Assembly: GCA_030426475.1 (NCBI GenBank)
Contig: JAUHYR010000018.1
Span: forward strand, 1-39,188
Source: Bacteroidia bacterium
GTDB lineage: Bacteria; Bacteroidota; Bacteroidia; Flavobacteriales_E; Vicingaceae
Length of the DNA: 39,188 bases
Direction: 5' to 3'
A program made the position numbers and the translations under genes. Positions 28,347-39,000 of the stretch are shown here, piece by piece (the first letter of the stretch is position 1; each line of letters opens with the position of its first letter). The notes under the pieces were generated by a model. It saw only the letters and a list, made by a program, of their open reading frames with translations. It had not been told where the DNA came from and searched no databases.

Positions 28347-29331
28347 TGATTTTTTCCAGGCTAACTTCATCAGCTTCAGCCTTGTAATTTCTAACTACCC
28401 TGTGTCTTAAAATTGGTAAGGCAACAGCGTTTACATCTTCAATATCAGGAGAAAATTTACCGTTTAATGCAGCATTGCACTTTGCGCCAATTAATAAGAA
28501 TTGTGAAGCTCTTGGACCTGCTCCCCAACTGAGATAGTCATTAACCATTTGAGTAGCCAATTCTCCTCCGGGACGAGTTTTAGAAGCTAATTTTACGGCA
28601 TATTCCACCACATTATCTGCTACAGGAATTTTTCTTATTAAGTTTTGAAAGAAAATGATTTCTTCAGCATCCAAAATTTTATTTAGTATAACATCTTTGT
28701 CTGATGTAGTGCTTTTTACAATATCTACTTCTTCTTGGTAAGAAGGATAATCTACCCAAATATTCAACATAAATCGATCTAATTGTGCTTCAGGAAGAGG
28801 ATAGGTCCCTTCTTGTTCAATTGGGTTTTGTGTAGCTAAAACAAAAAAGGGTAGAGGAAGTTTATAATTTTTTCCGCCTGTTGTTACGGCTTTTTCTTGC
28901 ATGGCTTCTAATAATGCAGCCTGCGTTTTTGGAGGTGTTCGGTTAATTTCATCTGCCAAAATAATATTCGCAAATAAAGGACCTTTTATAAACTTAAAGT
29001 GCTTGTTTTCATCCAATATTTCTGAACCTGTAATGTCAGATGGCATCAAATCAGGAGTGAATTGAATTCTATTGAAAGAAAGCCCTAATACATCTGCAAT
29101 TGTATTTACAAGCAAAGTTTTAGCTAATCCGGGAACTCCTACTAAAAGACAATGACCTCTACTAAAAATGGAAATCAATACATCTCTAACTACGGCATCT
29201 TGTCCTACAATAACTTTTTTAATCTCTTTAGTGAGAAGTCCGTATTTTTCAACAAATCCTTTTAATGCTTCGGTATCGTTACTATAGTTGGCTGGCATAA
29301 TTTCAGTTTCTATGGGTTTTGGGTTATCCAA
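28327..29331 (-). CDS. MoxR-family AAA+ ATPase
   Basis: 334 residues. The AAA+ core has Walker A GVPGLAKT (65-72), Walker B IILADEINR (123-131), sensor-1-like ATQNPIEQEGTYPLPEAQLDR and sensor 2/lid GPRASQFLL. MoxR ATPases act as chaperones that mature or activate partner proteins, often those with von Willebrand A domains, but no such partner is in the window. Two starts are possible: ATG 29331 overlaps the SurA-type gene by 22 bp; ATG 29298 (residue 12) gives a start closer to known family members and still overlaps nothing. It is the last gene of the PPIase operon. Confidence 0.93.
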   Translation of the reverse strand: MDNPKPIETEIMPANYSNDTEALKGFVEKYGLLTKEIKKVIVGQDAVVRDVLISIFSRGHCLLVGVPGLAKTLLVNTIADVLGLSFNRIQFTPDLMPSDITGSEILDENKHFKFIKGPLFANIILADEINRTPPKTQAALLEAMQEKAVTTGGKNYKLPLPFFVLATQNPIEQEGTYPLPEAQLDRFMLNIWVDYPSYQEEVDIVKSTTSDKDVILNKILDAEEIIFFQNLIRKIPVADNVVEYAVKLASKTRPGGELATQMVNDYLSWGAGPRASQFLLIGAKCNAALNGKFSPDIEDVNAVALPILRHRVVRNYKAEADEVSLEKIITSLLE

Positions 29332-30653
29332 GGATTAGTAAATGAACAGTTGGTATATTCTTCATTGAGTCGAATATAGGTATTTTTTACTTTTTTGGTA
29401 ATCCATTCATTAATGGCTTCGTTTTGCTTGTTGGTAAGTGCTGCTGTTTGAATTCTGTGATAATCGTCTTTTAAATTAGCAACGTGAGGCTCAGTTCTGG
29501 TTTTAAGCTGTATAATTCTATAGGCTTGCTTTCCTTCCATAGTGGTATAAGGAATAGGTTCTGAAATCTCTCCTGTTTCCATTTTATCTATAATGAAAAA
29601 TAGGGAAGGGTCTAGTTGGTCCATTTCAAAGCTATTATTTCCTGACTGTGGATTCATTATATTTCCGTTGCTATTTTTTGAAAATTCGTCTTGAGAAAAT
29701 TTAACCGCTGCTTCAGAAAAAGTAAGGGTATCGTTTAATATTAAGTTTTTTATTGAATCTAGTTTTGCTTTAGCCTTTAATAAGTCGGTATTGTCTGTTT
29801 TTGGTTTTATTAAAATATGGCGCACATTTACCTTTTCTCCTTTTCTGTCTATAAGTTGCATAATATGAAAGCCATATTTTGTCTCGACTATTTCTGAAAC
29901 TTTTGTGCCTTTAAGTTTAAAGGCAACTCCCGCAAATTCAGAAACTAATTCGCCTCTTCCCATATAACCAAGCTCTCCGCCTTTTTTTGATGAACCAGGG
30001 TCTTCAGAATATAAAACTGCCATAGTAGAAAAGCTTTCTCCTTTGATGATACGTTCTTTTAATTCCATAATTTTTTCTCTAGCTATTTCTCTTGCCTCAG
30101 AGCTAACAGGCGCATTTATTACAATTTGAGCAATTTCTACTTCAGAGTTTATAAATGGCAGACTATCAGTGGGAATACTGTTAAAATAATTTTTTACTTC
30201 GGCAGGAGTTACTTTAACACTTGAGGTAATTTGTGCCTGCATCTGCTGAATCATCATTTGATCTTTTATTAAATCTCTGAATTCTTCTTTAATTTCTTCT
30301 ATGCTCTTGTTGTAATAGTCCTCTAATTTTTTTTCTGAGCCTATTTGCTGTATAAAAAAGCGTAGTCTTCTGTCTAATTCCCCTTCTACTTGACTATCGG
30401 CAATATCAACACTATCTACTTCTGCCTGGTTTAATAATAAGGTCTGAAACAGTAATTCTTCAAGTATAATGCATTTGGTTTCATCATTAACAGGCGCGCC
30501 TTGTGAAATATAATTAGCGTATTGTACTTCAATATCTGACTGTAATACAATGTTTTGACCTACTACTGCAATTATTTCATCTGCAACAGTTTTTTCAGGT
30601 TGTGAAAAGGAAATAAGGGGAAGTAATAAAATTGCTAATGTAATTTTCTGCAT
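29310..30653 (-). CDS. SurA-type periplasmic peptidyl-prolyl isomerase
   Basis: 447 residues. Signal peptide (MQKITLAILLLPLISFSQ), then a SurA_N-like domain (DEIIAVVGQNIVLQSDIEVQ). Two parvulin domains follow: the first (about 170-270) with AQIVINAP, GESFSTMAVLYSEDPGSSKK and GGELGYMGRGEL; the second (about 275-380) with VNVRHILIKP and FSEAAVKFSQDEFSKNS. It should chaperone outer-membrane proteins in the periplasm. Its start forms a TAATG junction with the SET gene; its end overlaps moxR by 22 bp. Architecture and length are normal for SurA. Confidence 0.93.
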   Translation of the reverse strand: MQKITLAILLLPLISFSQPEKTVADEIIAVVGQNIVLQSDIEVQYANYISQGAPVNDETKCIILEELLFQTLLLNQAEVDSVDIADSQVEGELDRRLRFFIQQIGSEKKLEDYYNKSIEEIKEEFRDLIKDQMMIQQMQAQITSSVKVTPAEVKNYFNSIPTDSLPFINSEVEIAQIVINAPVSSEAREIAREKIMELKERIIKGESFSTMAVLYSEDPGSSKKGGELGYMGRGELVSEFAGVAFKLKGTKVSEIVETKYGFHIMQLIDRKGEKVNVRHILIKPKTDNTDLLKAKAKLDSIKNLILNDTLTFSEAAVKFSQDEFSKNSNGNIMNPQSGNNSFEMDQLDPSLFFIIDKMETGEISEPIPYTTMEGKQAYRIIQLKTRTEPHVANLKDDYHRIQTAALTNKQNEAINEWITKKVKNTYIRLNEEYTNCSFTNPWITQNP

Positions 30654-31255
30654 TATTTGTTATTAATTTTTGATTCGTCAAAATAACAATTTAAAATGGA
30701 ATCCATTTTTTCTTTGTTATTAGATATGTTAACGACCTTTTGCCACATTTCTTGCGAAAGTAATGATTTTAATGGTTGTTCAACTTTTACAATGTTTGGA
30801 AATGCTGCAGATAGCTTATTATCCCAAAGTTCATGATATTTTAAAAGGTCATCAGGATAAACCGTTTTTCTCTCATCACTTTCGTCTAGGGCATCAAAAG
30901 GTTCAGTTATATTAAGGTAACCATAGTCATCGGTTAATTCTTCTCCCGGTTGAATATCTCGAATGGCTATTTCAAAATCATAAGCTGTAGTTATACAGTT
31001 GGAGTTAAAACTGTGGTTAACGTATCTTCCATTATCCCAGCATAATACAAACCCTCCTTTATTATTTCTAAAGGTATAAGTTCCAATTATATCTTTGTAG
31101 ATGGGTTCCATTTGGTCAATTTCAAATAGAGAAAATTCTCTGTCTAATTTATCTAAAACCCAAGTGATGGTGCCTTTCGGAATTAGTTTTTTTGCAACAA
31201 CTCCGTAGCCTTTTTCGGCATTGATGTACCTAATTTCTGTATCAGGATGAATCAT
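30653..31255 (-). CDS. SET-domain protein (putative protein-lysine methyltransferase)
   Basis: 200 residues with all SET landmarks: the N-terminal GYGVVAKKLIPKGT (16-29), the signature NHSFNSNC (80-87, corresponding to eukaryotic RFINHSC.PN), and GEELTDDYGYLN (104-115, the ELx.DY tyrosine loop). A C-terminal helical extension (about 117-200) without the post-SET Cys cluster follows. The domain binds SAM and methylates a lysine; the substrate is unknown. No signal peptide, so it is cytoplasmic. It lies between two PPIase-related genes, with a TAATG junction to the SurA-type gene and 1 bp from the lipoprotein gene. Confidence 0.88.
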   Translation of the reverse strand: MIHPDTEIRYINAEKGYGVVAKKLIPKGTITWVLDKLDREFSLFEIDQMEPIYKDIIGTYTFRNNKGGFVLCWDNGRYVNHSFNSNCITTAYDFEIAIRDIQPGEELTDDYGYLNITEPFDALDESDERKTVYPDDLLKYHELWDNKLSAAFPNIVKVEQPLKSLLSQEMWQKVVNISNNKEKMDSILNCYFDESKINNK

Positions 31256-31256
31256 A

Positions 31257-32162
31257 TTATTTTTTTGTTGAAGGGTTGAATTTTTCTATTTGATTTTTGT
31301 CAAGAGCTTCATTATAAATATCCTTTTTCATGGTATTTATCAGCTCTATTTTTTTTGCGTTAATAAGGTAATTTCTGATGTTATCCTGAACAATTTCAAC
31401 AGGTGTTTGCTCTCCTTTAGACTTGTACTCATACACCGTAAAGAAATTAATAAAAGTGGAATCTTGTAATTCAATATATTTTTGGGATGTTAATAGATTT
31501 TCATTTTGGTTTCTAAGTGATTTAAATTTACCTAATAGCTGTGAGCTTGTCATCCATTTTTGATTGAATAAATTGAATTCAGTAGCAAATTGAATACAAT
31601 AATCTTGAAGTTTGTTTAAGTCTTTTTCTTTAGAAGACTTATGCCACTTTCTTGCTTTATCAAGTTCCGGAGAATTATTTCTTAGTGTAAAATAACCCAC
31701 TCTGTATAAGTTTTCTCGTAGCTTGTATTGTTCTTTGTTGTCTAGATAATAATTTTCAATTTCCTGGAAAGTAATGTTGGTGTCGAGCTGTTGGGCAACC
31801 AAGGCTTTTTCGTATTCATAAATAATTAAAGATCTCCTATAGGCTTCTATTTGTTTAGAGAAATTTTTTCTGTTTTCAGGTAAATTTTCCTCTGCCTGAA
31901 GTAAAAGCAATGTTTCTTTTACCCAACTATTGATGTAGTTTTCAATTATTTTGACACTATCTTCTCTAGACGTTTCTTTCGAAACTAAACCTTTGATATC
32001 TTCTTCGTATAAGTAAGTATTTTTTACTCTGGCAATTGCATTGCTTTCTGATTCAGAATTAGAACTGTTTTTACATCCAATTTGTATGAATGCAAATGAT
32101 ACTATAAAAAGAGGTAAAAAACCTTTATTTAACAAGGTCAAGAAGGTCTTTTTTAACCTCAT
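31257..32162 (-). CDS. SurA_N-like lipoprotein without a parvulin domain
   Basis: 301 residues. A signal sequence ends in the lipobox IGC (KNSSNSES after Cys), so it is membrane-anchored in the envelope. The rest is helical: NAIARVKNTYLYEEDIKGL, then YINSWVKETLLLLQAEENL and EYEKALVAQQLDTNITFQEIENYY, strongly like the N-terminal helical chaperone region of SurA/PpiD, but no parvulin catalytic core follows. It may be a dedicated holdase-like helper of the neighbouring PPIases (inference). It overlaps the upstream PPIase gene by 38 bp, the largest overlap in the operon, so the start is either coupled or further in; a later Met is not obvious. Confidence 0.78.
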   Translation of the reverse strand: MRLKKTFLTLLNKGFLPLFIVSFAFIQIGCKNSSNSESESNAIARVKNTYLYEEDIKGLVSKETSREDSVKIIENYINSWVKETLLLLQAEENLPENRKNFSKQIEAYRRSLIIYEYEKALVAQQLDTNITFQEIENYYLDNKEQYKLRENLYRVGYFTLRNNSPELDKARKWHKSSKEKDLNKLQDYCIQFATEFNLFNQKWMTSSQLLGKFKSLRNQNENLLTSQKYIELQDSTFINFFTVYEYKSKGEQTPVEIVQDNIRNYLINAKKIELINTMKKDIYNEALDKNQIEKFNPSTKK

Positions 32163-34086
32163 ATTTGTATTTAGATTTTAGTTCCTTAATCCACTCTTTT
32201 TCAAGGTAATTTTGATAATCCGAAGTAATTAACCCCCTGGCTTCTGAAATTTGCTTTGGCTGAGCCGGAAGTTTTTTTGTTATTTCAGCAAAGGCATATC
32301 TGTTATCTTTTCTTTTAACAATATCAGAAACTCTGACATTCCACTCTGCCATATCAACTACCTCATTTTCTCCTTTTGAATAGGTATTTTCTTCAATGGT
32401 TAAATATAACTGCGAGTCAGTATTTATAGCTTTTAGAATGTCTTCTTTTGTGTAACCTTTTTTTGCCTTTTTCTTAACCATTTTCTTTACCTGTTTGGCA
32501 ATTTTTTCATTCTCACAGTTGTAAACAATAGCTTCAACTCTTTCGGGCCACATGTAATTGGATTTATTGGCTTCATAATATTCTTTTAGGCCAACGGTAT
32601 CTTTTATGGCTTTTGACCATACTTTTTCATCTGTTAATTCAAAAAGTAAAATCCCGTCTCTATATTCTTGTAAAAGCATTCTGTATTCCGGATATTTTTC
32701 AGCAAGTTTAGATTCTTCATAAGCAATAACTTGTTCGTCTATAAAGTCTTCGTAATAGTTATCTACTAATGCTTTTAAGTCTTTATTGGCGCTTTTTACT
32801 TGTTTAGCAGATAAATATTTAGCAAAATCTTGTTGGTTAATTTCTTTATCACCAATTTTTGCCATGGTAGCATTTAGTTTTGAAGCTTTTGATAATAACC
32901 ATGCACCTTCTGCTAAGTCTTTGTCTACAACTTTATAGAAATCAGCTTTTTCTTTAGCTATTTCTTTAAAATCGTATTCTTTTTTGATTTTATTGATAAA
33001 TGATTCTTTACTTTTTGAAGAACGTGTGTCTCGCTGCACTTTGACTTTTATTTCATTGTATGTGTCTTCAAATGTACCAAGTGTTTTAAGGTTAATTCTT
33101 TTTATAAGATGCCATCCGTATGGAGTTTTAATAGGTTCAGAAACGTCTCCGTCATTTTTTAGTGCAAAGGTGGCATCTTCAAATTCTTGAACCATTTTTC
33201 CCGGCCCGAAAGGAGGCAATTCACCACCTTTAAATGAGGAACCTTTGTCATCTGAAAATTTTTGGGCAAGCGCAGCAAAATTATTTTCTTCTGAAGATTC
33301 ATCAATTTTCGAACGAATTTCTAGTAGCTTTTCCTTTGCTTTTTCTATTTCTTCTTTTGTAGAACCTTCAGGAGTTCTAATCATGATGTGTGCTGCCTTA
33401 ATTTCACCTCTGGCCGGACGTTTATCTATTACATTGATAATATGGTAACCGAACCGGGTTCTTACCGGCATAGAAACATCGCCTACTTTTGTATTATATG
33501 AGGCATTTTCGAAAGGGTAAACCATATAAAAAGCAGTGTAGTAACCCAAATCTTTATCGTAGATATACTTATCATTTTTTGTTTCTGTAAGAGATGCGCC
33601 AATGGCGTCAAAACTTTCACCGTTTTTAACTCTTTTTCTAATTTTAAGTAATTCATTATAAGCTTCAAGAGTGTCTTTTGCAGGAGCGTCAGGCGATAAT
33701 TTAATAAGGATGTGTCCTGCTCTTATTTCCTGCTTCATTCTTTCATAAGCTTCTTTAATCAATTCTTCCGAAACATCTTTATCTGTTAAGTAGGGTTGTG
33801 TAAGTTGTTTTCTATAGCCTTCTAGTTCTTCAATAAAGGCTTTGGTAGTATCCATACCTAACTTTTCTGCATCATGAACTTTTAACTTGAAATTGATAAA
33901 AAGGTCTAAATATTCTTCTAAATCCTTTCTATCAACGGTTGGATTGTTATTGTTTTTTTTATAGATGCTTTCAAACTCAGAAAGCTTAACTTCTTTATTT
34001 TCAATTTTTAAAATAGTTGGATCTTTTTGTGAAAAAGCTGCAAATCCAGCTAATAATAATCCTAATAAAATAAATTTAACCTTCAT
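32125..34086 (-). CDS. Double-parvulin periplasmic peptidyl-prolyl isomerase (PpiC/PpiD-like)
   Basis: 653 residues. Signal peptide (KFILLGLLLAGFAAFSQ), then a helical N-domain with VKLSEFESIYKKNN. Two parvulin repeats follow: IRAGHILIKLSPDAPAKD ... DLGYYTAFYMVYPFENASY ... RFGYHIINVID (about 117-222) and IKAAHIMIRTPEGS ... FSDDKGSSFKGGELPPFG ... PYGWHLIKRI (about 229-332). A long C-terminal helical region (about 340-653) completes the protein. It should assist folding of envelope and outer-membrane proteins. It starts 10 bp after guaB, so guaB read-through is probable, and is the first of four envelope genes on the operon. Confidence 0.93.
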   Translation of the reverse strand: MKVKFILLGLLLAGFAAFSQKDPTILKIENKEVKLSEFESIYKKNNNNPTVDRKDLEEYLDLFINFKLKVHDAEKLGMDTTKAFIEELEGYRKQLTQPYLTDKDVSEELIKEAYERMKQEIRAGHILIKLSPDAPAKDTLEAYNELLKIRKRVKNGESFDAIGASLTETKNDKYIYDKDLGYYTAFYMVYPFENASYNTKVGDVSMPVRTRFGYHIINVIDKRPARGEIKAAHIMIRTPEGSTKEEIEKAKEKLLEIRSKIDESSEENNFAALAQKFSDDKGSSFKGGELPPFGPGKMVQEFEDATFALKNDGDVSEPIKTPYGWHLIKRINLKTLGTFEDTYNEIKVKVQRDTRSSKSKESFINKIKKEYDFKEIAKEKADFYKVVDKDLAEGAWLLSKASKLNATMAKIGDKEINQQDFAKYLSAKQVKSANKDLKALVDNYYEDFIDEQVIAYEESKLAEKYPEYRMLLQEYRDGILLFELTDEKVWSKAIKDTVGLKEYYEANKSNYMWPERVEAIVYNCENEKIAKQVKKMVKKKAKKGYTKEDILKAINTDSQLYLTIEENTYSKGENEVVDMAEWNVRVSDIVKRKDNRYAFAEITKKLPAQPKQISEARGLITSDYQNYLEKEWIKELKSKYKYEVKKDLLDLVK

Positions 34087-34096
34087 AATTTTTAAT

Positions 34097-35569
34097 TTAT
34101 CTATAATAGTTTGGTGCTTCTCTGGTAATAGTTACATCATGTGGATGACTTTCTCTAATCCCTGACGATGTAATTTTAACAAATTTAGCTTGTTTTAAAG
34201 TTTCAATATCTTTTGCTCCGCAATAGCCCATTCCTGCCCGTAGTCCGCCCGTAAATTGATAAAATACCTCACTTAAATAGCCTTTAAATGGAACTCTTCC
34301 TGAAATTCCTTCGGGAACTAATTTTTTGATATCATCTTCTGCGTCTTGGAAGTATCTGTCTTTTGAGCCTTGTTGCATAGCTTCAATAGACCCCATTCCT
34401 CTATAAGTCTTAAATTTTCTTCCTTCATAAATAATTGTCTCTCCAGGAGATTCCTCTACTCCTGCAAACATGGATCCTAGCATTATTGTGTCTGCTCCTG
34501 CAGCAATAGCTTTTACTAAATCACCGGTATATCTTATACCACCATCGGCTATTAGTGGGATTCCAGTTTTTTTGATTGATTCATAAACGGTAAATATTGC
34601 AGAAAGTTGTGGAACTCCTACTCCCGCAATTACTCTGGTTGTGCATATTGAACCTGGTCCAATTCCAACTTTAATTGCATTAGCTCCGGCTTCTATTAGC
34701 ATTAATGCTGCTTCACCTGTTGCAACATTACCTACCACTACTTGTAGGTCAGGGTATTTTGTTTTTACTTTTTTAAGTGCTTCTACTACCCCTTTTGAAT
34801 GTCCATGGGCAGTATCTATTGTGATTGCATCAACACCTGATTTTACCAAGGCTTCAACCCTGTCCATGATATCCGGTGTAATACCTACCGCTGCTGCAAC
34901 TCTAAGCCTTCCTAGACTGTCCTTACAGGCATTAGGTTTTAGCTTTAGCTTGATAATATCTTTGTATGTAATTAATCCAATTAACTTATTATTTTCATCT
35001 ACAACAGGAAGTTTTTCTATTTTATGTTGTTGCAAAATGTCCTCAGCTTCTTTTAGACTAGTACCAACGCCTGTGGTAATAATATTTTCTTTTGTCATTA
35101 CTTCTCCTACAGGTCTTTTATAGTCTTTTTCAAATCTTAAGTCACGGTTAGTAACGATACCTGCCAATAAATTATTTTTATCAATTACAGGAATTCCTCC
35201 AATTTTATGTTCTTTCATTAAATTAAGGGCATCTCCCACATTTGCGTTATCAAGAAGTGTAACAGGGTCTTGAATCATGCCGCTTTCCGAACGTTTTACT
35301 TTTCTGACTTCATTAGCTTGTTGCTCAATAGTCATATTTTTATGTAAAACACCAATTCCACCTTCTTGAGCTATTGCAATGGCTAGGTTTGATTCAGTAA
35401 CTGTGTCCATAGCTGATGATACTATGGGAGCCTTAAGAGTTATTTCAGTAGTAAACCTAGAACTTATATCTACTTCTCTAGGAAGTATTTCTGAATAAGA
35501 AGGAACTAGTAATACATCATCATATGTAAGGCCTTCTCCAATTATTTTACTATCTGAATTAAGTATCAT
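34097..35569 (-). CDS. guaB: Inosine-5'-monophosphate dehydrogenase GuaB
   Basis: 490 residues, standard length. Converts IMP to XMP with NAD+, the committed step of GMP synthesis. Visible: [17 protein letters not shown] (14-30), the two CBS domains (about 95-210), IDTAHGHS (251-258), the catalytic loop GPGSICTTR (304-312) with nucleophile Cys309, [21 protein letters not shown], and the flap/late motif [12 protein letters not shown]. All landmark residues are intact. The promoter (TTTG, 19-bp gap, TAGATTTG) lies 23-53 bp before the ATG, preceded by a strong terminator from the opposite side. It heads the PPIase operon. Confidence 0.98.
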
Positions 35570-35670: not shown

Positions 35671-38511
35671 TTATTTAAGAATTGTGACAGTACCTCTTTT
35701 TTCGATGTCTTTGCCGTTCGCAGTTCTAAATTTAACAAGGAAAACATAGACCCCTGTTTGAACTAACTCACCTGAATTATTGTATTTTCCGTTCCACCCT
35801 TCTGCAAGATTGTTGGTTTCAAAAATCTGATGCCCCCATCTGTCCCAGATAGAGAAGTTATATCCCTCTAGGTCAGAGAACCTAAGACTAGGCCTGAAGT
35901 CGGGAATGCCGGCATTATTATTAACCACAAAAGAGTTAGGGATGTAGAAGTATGGCTCATGCGTAACACATACTACATTAGAAACACTAACAGAAGGCTC
36001 AAGCGTAGCAAACGAAGGATTATCCTCAATGGCTACAATTTGATAACAGAATTTACCCATACCATCCAGCTCAGGAGCAAGGTAGTCGATAAGGGCGGTT
36101 TGAGCAGTATCGCCTTTAAACTTAGCCATTAACTGCATGTTGTTAGAACCATTTACACCTTTGTAAATATGATACTCCTTAACAGTTCCTGCCCAATCTT
36201 CATATTTATTCCATGTTAAAGTATTAGTAGCTTCCGCTTCATCATCTTGAACTTGCAGAAGAATAGACCTACCATTATTAGAAGTTTCTACGATTTTACC
36301 ACATGGATCAACCGCCTCTACTCTATAGAAATAGCTCTTATAACTAGTAGTAACATTATCATCTTTGAATTTGATGATAGTATCTGTACCCATTGCTTCA
36401 GAAGTAATGAGTGAATATGGTCCAGATTTAAAGTCAGATCTCATTAAGTTAAACTGACTAATTTGAGCAGCCGTATCAATGTAAGCAGAAATTTCTATCT
36501 CATTGGTATCACTTACCGTAACATATTGTAAGTAATGATAATCAGGAGTGGCAAATAAAGCGGCATCCTCCATTACCATATTAGAAGTAGAAGACCTAGG
36601 TCCTGCACCACCATTATCGAAAGCCCTAACAATATACCTGTAGTTAGACCCATTATTGATAGGAGTGTGCAGGTAATTTAAATTATTTGTGGAAGCCAAA
36701 TAGGTAAACGGTCCGTTATTCACACTAACATAAATGTTATAAGAAGCCGAAGTAGTCCAACCCTCATAAGCATTCCAATTTAAGTAAACACCAGGCAAAC
36801 AAACATCAATATCAGACTCAAGATAAATCGTTTTATGATAGTTTAAAACATAAGTAATTTCATTACCACAACTATCGTAAACAGTTACTCTGTATTGTTC
36901 CGCTTCGTTGTTGGCATTAGCACCTATGTATGTATAATTAGTTCCCGGAGCTGGCACATTCCCCACATTAACATGAGCACCCGTAGTAGGATTAAATTTA
37001 ATGATATTGTATCCGGTGACATCAGCATCAGGTCCCGGAGTCCAACCAATAATTACATTCCCTGTAAACGGATCAACAGAAATACTATCCGGTGAAATAA
37101 CTTGCGGAGGAATAGTGTCTCTGAACCTAGCTGTATCAATAGAAGAAACAGAAATACAACCCGATTGGTCACCAATTTCAATTCGATATCCAACTAATTC
37201 ATTACAAACATTTCTGGCATCATTATATGCCTCATTTCCATACGGTGTATTTCCCAAAACATTCCAATTAGTAGAAGTAAAAGGAGTTTCTCTGTAAACA
37301 TCATAACTACCCGAAGAACTAGGTAAGTTAGGATTAATAATCTGATTCCAAGTTAAGTTAGCCGTAACAGCGGTAGGCTGAGTAACATTTAACTTTATAG
37401 GAGTTAATGTGTCAGACGTACTTCTGGAAGGATCTGTTCCATAACACCCTGAATTGGTAGTAACATAATAATAATTGTTACTATTTGCACTAAACGCACC
37501 CATGTGAGTATAAGTAAGAGTGGCAGCATTATTAATAGTAGCAATAGAACTATAAGGACCACCTATATTAGTAGCATGAAACACCTCATAAGAAGCAAAG
37601 TTTCCTGTAGGGTCAAGCGGAGCTACCCAAGTGATAGTAATATCCTGCTGATTTGGTTCAACTGAAATACACCTGAGAGAAGGCGCTTGAATAATAGTAG
37701 AGTCCAGTAAATTATTAACTGTAAAACATAATTCATTAGAAGAAGAACTTCTGCCGTTACCATCAAAGGCTCTGATAATATAACAGTAATTACTACTATT
37801 AATGCCGGTATGCACAAAAGCAGTATCTAAAGTAGGACCGGATAAAGTTCCCACAAGATTGTATCCCATGGCATTTTCATTCGCCCAAATTTCATAACGC
37901 TGAACACCGGCTGCCCAATTAATATATTTATTCCAATAAATATGATTTTCAGCTTTACAATGGTCCGTTGAATCTAATCTAGCCCAAATAGTATTATGAA
38001 CTAAGCTTGTATCGCCAACAATATCACAGCTATCCATAGGAGTAACCACATAATTATATGATTGAGCTCCAGGAGTAACAGGGGTATGAGTAAAGGAGAA
38101 AGGAGCAGGTAACCCAACGGTTCCAATTAAATTGTAAGTAGCCGGAGGGATAAATTGGTACACAAAATAAGTATCAACACTAGTTGTAGTACTAGGAGAC
38201 CATGTAATAAGATTGGTGTTATTATTTACCACTGTAACACTATCAATTAAAGAAGCATTAGGAGGAGTATTAGCACCAAACCAGTTTCCTCTGACCGTAG
38301 AGTTAGAAGTACATGGTAAATCATCCTTTACCTCAATTCTATAAGAAAGCGTATCCCAACAAACAGTAACTTGATCATTATAAGAAAGTCCCATGGTAGA
38401 ATCTACTAACGTCCAAGTACCAATAGGAGCTTCTCTCCAAATATAATAATATCCTGTAGTAGAAGGAAGCAGAGGAGTAGTAAGCGCATTCCATGATAAT
38501 TGAGCAATACC
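35671..38511 (-). CDS. Large T9SS type B (CHU_C) substrate with FnIII-like repeats, 5' truncated
   Basis: The frame is open from the join at about 38,500-38,523 to the stop at 35671, at least 945 residues. The first Met at 38394 is internal: upstream in the same frame lies GIAQLSWNALTTPLLP, more of the same protein. Repeats of a beta domain with LTWNKYEDWAGTVKEYHIYK-like motifs (NHIYWNKYINWAAGVQRYEI, VYLNWNAYEGWTTSASYNIY) resemble FnIII units of about 95-100 residues with regular Cys. The C-terminal domain (YIPNSFVVNNNAGIPDF, IWDRWGHQIFET, GWNGKYNNSGELVQTGVYVF) is the CHU_C gliding-motility type B sorting signal. It would be secreted by T9SS. Start, signal peptide and full length are missing because the contig is broken there. 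Confidence 0.88.
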   Translation of the reverse strand, partial: GIAQLSWNALTTPLLPSTTGYYYIWREAPIGTWTLVDSTMGLSYNDQVTVCWDTLSYRIEVKDDLPCTSNSTVRGNWFGANTPPNASLIDSVTVVNNNTNLITWSPSTTTSVDTYFVYQFIPPATYNLIGTVGLPAPFSFTHTPVTPGAQSYNYVVTPMDSCDIVGDTSLVHNTIWARLDSTDHCKAENHIYWNKYINWAAGVQRYEIWANENAMGYNLVGTLSGPTLDTAFVHTGINSSNYCYIIRAFDGNGRSSSSNELCFTVNNLLDSTIIQAPSLRCISVEPNQQDITITWVAPLDPTGNFASYEVFHATNIGGPYSSIATINNAATLTYTHMGAFSANSNNYYYVTTNSGCYGTDPSRSTSDTLTPIKLNVTQPTAVTANLTWNQIINPNLPSSSGSYDVYRETPFTSTNWNVLGNTPYGNEAYNDARNVCNELVGYRIEIGDQSGCISVSSIDTARFRDTIPPQVISPDSISVDPFTGNVIIGWTPGPDADVTGYNIIKFNPTTGAHVNVGNVPAPGTNYTYIGANANNEAEQYRVTVYDSCGNEITYVLNYHKTIYLESDIDVCLPGVYLNWNAYEGWTTSASYNIYVSVNNGPFTYLASTNNLNYLHTPINNGSNYRYIVRAFDNGGAGPRSSTSNMVMEDAALFATPDYHYLQYVTVSDTNEIEISAYIDTAAQISQFNLMRSDFKSGPYSLITSEAMGTDTIIKFKDDNVTTSYKSYFYRVEAVDPCGKIVETSNNGRSILLQVQDDEAEATNTLTWNKYEDWAGTVKEYHIYKGVNGSNNMQLMAKFKGDTAQTALIDYLAPELDGMGKFCYQIVAIEDNPSFATLEPSVSVSNVVCVTHEPYFYIPNSFVVNNNAGIPDFRPSLRFSDLEGYNFSIWDRWGHQIFETNNLAEGWNGKYNNSGELVQTGVYVFLVKFRTANGKDIEKRGTVTILK

Positions 38512-38523
38512 GCCACCACCGCC
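38500..38523. other. Chimeric junction between two unrelated genomes (probable assembly artefact)
   Basis: The Bacteroidota CHU_C gene (minus) and a DASS transporter (plus) are both cut and meet at GAGCAATACCGCCACCACC. To the left, sequence is AT-rich and encodes beta-domain protein; from about 38,512 rightwards it is GC-rich and encodes transporter helices. Short CCACC-type microhomology at the point of change is what a mis-join would use. Confidence 0.8.
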
Positions 38524-38760
38524 ATCATCATGCCTATTCTGTTCTCAATGTCTGATGCCATTGGCGTTGACCCGATCAAAATCATGGTGCCCGCAGCCAT
38601 CAGCGCCAGCTGCGCGTTTATGCTACCCGTCGCCACCGCCCCCAACGCCATCGTTTACGGCTCTGAACAAGTACGCATCAAAAGCATGATGAAACAAGGT
38701 TTTAAACTCAATGTAATGGGTGCTTTGGTGATATCAGGTATTGCGACTTGGTGGTTGTGA
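38500..38760 (+). pseudogene. 3' fragment of a DASS/SLC13-family sodium:dicarboxylate or sulfate symporter
   Basis: About 86 residues of the C-terminus: LSNTATTAIIMPILFSM (second SNT motif that binds Na+ and substrate in this family), then ISASCAFMLPVATAPNAIVYGS, VRIKSMMKQGFKLNVMGALV and the end ISGIATWWL. The conserved order of helices 10-11 is clear, so this is a DASS carboxylate/sulfate transporter. The TTG at 38500 is not a start: the family has several hundred residues before SNT, which are lost at the join. GC content and codon choice (GCC, ATC, CCC) differ from everything to the left. Marked as a fragment because of the join, not because of mutation. Confidence 0.85.
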
Positions 38761-38767
38761 AGTACAG

Positions 38768-38788
38768 GTAGGGTGGGCTCCGCCCACC
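38768..38788 (+). repeat. REP-like unit, copy 1
   Basis: GTAGGGTGGGCTCCGCCCACC folds as GGTGGGC-TCC-GCCCACC with a 5' GTAG head. This shape (GTAG tetranucleotide plus palindrome) is that of REP elements mobilised by RAYT transposases in proteobacteria. Confidence 0.7.
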
Positions 38789-38819
38789 AAATTAAACGAA
38801 ACAAACTTCAAAACTTCTT

Positions 38820-38840
38820 GATGGGCAAAGCCCATCCTAC
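38820..38840 (-). repeat. REP-like unit, copy 2 (inverted)
   Basis: On the minus strand reads GTAGGATGGGCTTTGCCCATC, the same head and palindrome as copy 1 with compensating changes in the stem and loop. The pair is inverted with 31 bp between, as in a BIME. Confidence 0.7.
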
Positions 38841-38944
38841 AATACTATCTATAAGATGGCTTAGAGAAAATAACATGACTCCAAGATAAAACGTCATTCT
38901 GACCGAGCAAAGCGAGTGGAAGAATCTTCATGGGTTAGGAATCA

Positions 38945-39000
38945 GGCACACCTTCTGAAATAGTTCCTCAATATTCGCTCGGTGAATAAGAAGGTATGCC
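38945..39000. repeat. Nested inverted repeat
   Basis: GGCACACCTTCT (38945-38956) pairs with AGAAGGTATGCC (38989-39000) with one non-canonical or mismatched position. Inside, TATTC (38972-38976) pairs with GAATA (38984-38988). The whole 56 bp could fold as a branched hairpin. It may be a small mobile repeat or an RNA element of the foreign genome. Confidence 0.45.

Follow-up and report, generated by a model that had tools for sequence, protein, structure and literature searches.

Contig C20 is very probably a chimera (probability about 0.96, as judged from its sequence), in which a Bacteroidota segment is followed by 686 bases of Marinicella-like DNA, and the junction would be an artefact and not the trace of a horizontal gene transfer. 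The window analysed is this whole contig, 39,188 bases long, of the Bacteroidota assembly G000 (139 contigs with a total of 2.87 Mb; completeness 97.7%, contamination 1.0%). The join lies 0.7 kb from the end of the contig, and contig ends are a frequent site of assembly errors. The GC content is 32.3% to the left of the join and 43.9% to its right. A chimeric contig had already been proposed in a sequence-only reading of this DNA, and the proposal is borne out, with the missing 5' half of the left gene traced to contig C6 of the same assembly and the right half of the contig to Marinicella-type DNA. The features concerned are:

34,097 to 35,569, minus strand: guaB (IMP dehydrogenase), a native neighbour that serves as anchor for orthologues of the broken gene (73-76% identity in relatives)
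35,671 to 38,502, minus strand: native fn3/CHU_C gene (T9SS-sorted), 3' part, with the 5' part on C6
38,503 to 38,511, no strand: the join, where AGCAATACC is compatible with GIAQLSW of the left partner and with SNTATT of the right one
38,503 to 38,760, plus strand: foreign, the last 85 codons and the stop codon of a symporter gene (DASS, PF00939) from a Marinicella-like gammaproteobacterium, assigned by protein and DNA identity
38,761 to 39,188, no strand: foreign intergenic DNA with dispersed Marinicella-type repeats up to the contig end, assigned by repeat matches and trinucleotide composition

Two genes broken at the join

The join was placed at 38,503, with an ambiguity to about 38,511, which is within the interval of 38,490-38,540 given earlier. 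In agreement with the sequence-only reading, two unrelated genes on opposite strands are cut at this one point, a CHU_C frame on the minus strand and a DASS frame on the plus strand, and neither has a start there. Followed upward from its stop at 35,671, the CHU_C frame arrives at ...GIAQLSWNA at about 38,500, next to which comes a run of glycines; beyond this run, and without passing any start codon, it meets a stop that lies six codons above 38,526. The DASS frame opens with SNTATTAIIMPI at 38,503, just downstream of an in-frame TAA at 38,497-38,499, and ends at 38,760. What is missing at the join amounts to about 600 codons of the 5' part of the CHU_C gene and about 385 codons of the DASS gene.

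The sequence of C20 is unbroken across the join and contains no N run, a continuity that is in favour of a recent horizontal transfer, in which a Marinicella-derived segment truly inserted into the fn3/CHU_C gene and the contig ends inside the insert. That Gammaproteobacteria and Bacteroidota share habitats also counts for such an insertion. However, a search at the join for an integrase, an insertion sequence, repeats or a target duplication found none; the lack of integrase, insertion sequence and target duplication speaks against insertion, as does the mid-gene start that the insert would have. A scan for RNA families and tRNAs likewise gave nothing at the join.

Affiliation of the right arm

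To the right of the join, the coding sequence matches PF00939 (Na_sulph_symp, 3.4e-16) at profile positions 380-466 of 472, and thus represents the C-terminal part of the DASS/SLC13 symporter profile, with the SNTA motif present in what is only a fragment. Its closest proteins are from Marinicella (Gammaproteobacteria), with 84% identity in M. litoralis and 71-81% in other members, in line with the earlier description of this side as the C-terminus of a proteobacterial-like DASS symporter. At the DNA level, homology to Marinicella extends from exactly 38,503 to the end of the gene, with 71-78% identity. At seven Marinicella loci the gene is an open frame of 467-473 codons, of which the part in the window begins about 382-388 codons in. 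No part of G000 contains the symporter's first ~385 codons. None of the 18 Marinicella genomes searched with the right arm is the exact donor (best DNA identity 78%).

The intergenic DNA downstream of the symporter shows the same affiliation. Repeats were found at three places (38,768-38,789, 38,820-38,841 and about 38,890-38,930), which together with the GC content confirms that the right side is GC-rich with REP-like repeats. The repeat-bearing segments 38,755-38,852 and 38,885-38,986 have matches at many sites in most of the 18 Marinicella genomes, and 17 of the 18 show some match to the right arm, either to the symporter or to the repeats. The intergenic repeats of 38,768-38,841 are of a GTGGGC-hairpin type, with many dispersed copies in Marinicella genomes. 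A short minus-strand frame is open at the contig end (39,090-39,188, FLTRPRRTEKTIPDFMSPNAPENRLDIIRGTA); it gave no significant match among the loci compared and is presumably the next Marinicella gene.

The composition of the right arm differs from that of its surroundings. GC3 of the DASS fragment is 0.62, as against 0.25 +/- 0.08 (maximum 0.52) for 91 pieces of the same size from left-arm genes. The trinucleotide score of the right arm, +0.19 per base, falls within the range of held-out Marinicella pieces (0.35 +/- 0.15) and exceeds all held-out pieces of the own genome (maximum -0.02) as well as those of the left arm (maximum 0.10).

Among the 20 Bacteroidota relatives no match to the right arm was found (a single short match falls in the left arm), and there was none in the rest of G000. 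These results bear on the idea that the right arm is native, a Bacteroidota gene that resembles Marinicella by chance. G000 does possess a separate and complete DASS gene of its own on C82, which might lend this idea some plausibility. However, the frame is preceded directly by a stop and has no space for its first ~385 codons, the repeats beside it are of the Marinicella type, the composition is foreign and the 20 relatives have nothing that matches, so that a native origin appears the least probable of all the readings considered, with hardly any weight left to it.

The left arm and its continuation on C6

The left-arm frame comprises about 945-950 codons and contains fn3 and CHU_C (T9SS signal) domains (PF13585 CHU_C, 2.2e-10, plus fn3); these matches and the GC content uphold the view of the left side as a T9SS CHU_C gene in AT-rich DNA. 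Eight relatives have a homologue of guaB (73-76% identical) and one of the broken gene in the same stretch, and in seven of these eight guaB-linked relatives the latter is an open frame of 1,333-1,659 codons, some of the frames being clipped where the stretch or contig ends. The left side hence originates from a Bacteroidota gene beside guaB with orthologues in relatives of the family. The region of 29,310-35,569 of the window carries guaB, a PpiC-like protein of 653 aa, a protein of 301 aa and a second PpiC-like protein, in an order that is conserved in relatives of the family.

When the N-terminal part of an orthologue was compared with G000, one strong match was obtained, at positions 45,787-47,283 of C6. 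The matching frame (C6:45,691-47,415) has 578 codons and is still open at base 47,415, where C6 ends. When aligned to L128, a 1631-aa orthologue beside guaB, the half on C6 spans residues 2-595 and the half on C20 residues 667-1631, and between the two halves the alignment leaves about 20-26 residues, corresponding to 60-80 bp. A search for sequence shared by the end of C6 and C20 gave no overlap, as would be the case with a small gap between them. In G000 no further orphan half of the fn3/CHU_C kind was found, whether N-terminal or C-terminal. On C6 the N-half is preceded by glyA; the stretches compared around the orthologues showed no glyA, so that the adjacency of C6 and C20 rests on the two complementary gene halves. 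The true continuation of the native side is thus present elsewhere in the assembly, as the complementary half on C6. In the organism the fn3/CHU_C gene is probably whole, its apparent division over two contigs being caused by a small gap, and the right end of C6 and the right end of C20 (reversed) are probably native neighbours, which could be linked in a scaffold across some 60-80 missing bp.

The insertion described above fits poorly with this arrangement. C6 halts some 60-80 bp before it would reach that site and never enters foreign DNA, and G000 contains no other donor DNA, neither the 5' end of the symporter nor the repeats. We therefore regard a recent horizontal transfer as very improbable, and give equally little credence to its more specific form, in which a very recent Marinicella-like transfer into the surface-protein gene has become fixed in the population and left the gene disrupted.

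Shared bases at the join

Comparison with the Marinicella genomes fixes the right side from the AGC at 38,503 onwards. The codon before it is ACC in the seven Marinicella loci, as against TTG (38,500-38,502) in the window, so that the TTG belongs to the left side. On the minus strand, AGCAATACC (38,503-38,511) reads GGT ATT GCT, or G-I-A, which is compatible with the left protein. As AGCAATACC fits both the left and the right partner, the breakpoint is ambiguous within it.

The sequence-only reading had proposed a microhomology at the join, in the form of the string CCGCCACCACC. This string is present at 38,510-38,520, and its minus-strand reading is part of the glycine run. The proteins of the left arm contain no run of more than three glycines, the orthologues of the CHU_C gene have no glycine run at the corresponding place, and GGC accounts for only 14% of the Gly codons. 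Read in the frame of the symporter, CCGCCACCACC probably represents ordinary codons (A-T-T) and not shared bases. The existence of a short shared stretch is thus retained, with a probable length of about 9 bases and with AGCAATACC rather than CCGCCACCACC as the likely shared part.

Origin of the join and consequences

The sequence shows the two origins, the single point at which both genes are cut and the native continuation on C6. The Bacteroidota segment breaks off inside the fn3/CHU_C gene, at an assembly gap of about 60-80 bp before C6, and to the broken end are attached 686 bases from another, unrelated organism, a Marinicella-like gammaproteobacterium that presumably occurred in the same community. 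How the assembler came to extend past the poorly covered gap is a matter of inference: the cause could be a chimeric molecule or read, or else a false overlap within the shared stretch of ~9 bp. Since typical k-mer overlaps are longer than nine bases, the balance would tilt towards a chimeric library molecule that bridged the low-coverage gap and away from an assembler error.

Chimeric contigs that derive from misassembly are described as relatively rare in metagenome-assembled genomes and are set apart from mis-binning (GUNC, PMC8201837). Like those contigs, C20 combines fragments of two source genomes; unlike them, its foreign part is confined to 0.7 kb at one end of the contig and holds just one gene fragment. 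An amount of foreign coding sequence this small would be expected to leave scores of completeness, contamination or chimerism almost unchanged. Chimeric reads from library preparation that are joined at microhomology, for example in formalin-fixed samples, are treated in PMC8674242. As in those cases, two unrelated molecules appear to meet at a short shared stretch; the chimeras there are reads from formalin-fixed samples, whereas here the join is known from the assembled sequence alone.

The earlier advice that the right 0.7 kb should not be used to infer horizontal transfer is supported. G000 has no other trace of Marinicella-type DNA. The right arm should be trimmed and the contig cut at 38,502. 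The importance of the finding is one of hygiene only: left untrimmed, the right 0.7 kb would credit the species with a gene transfer and a symporter that are both false, and the surface-protein gene beside guaB would be miscalled as truncated if the chimera were kept. Linking C6 with C20 gives a corrected view of how the native genes are ordered.
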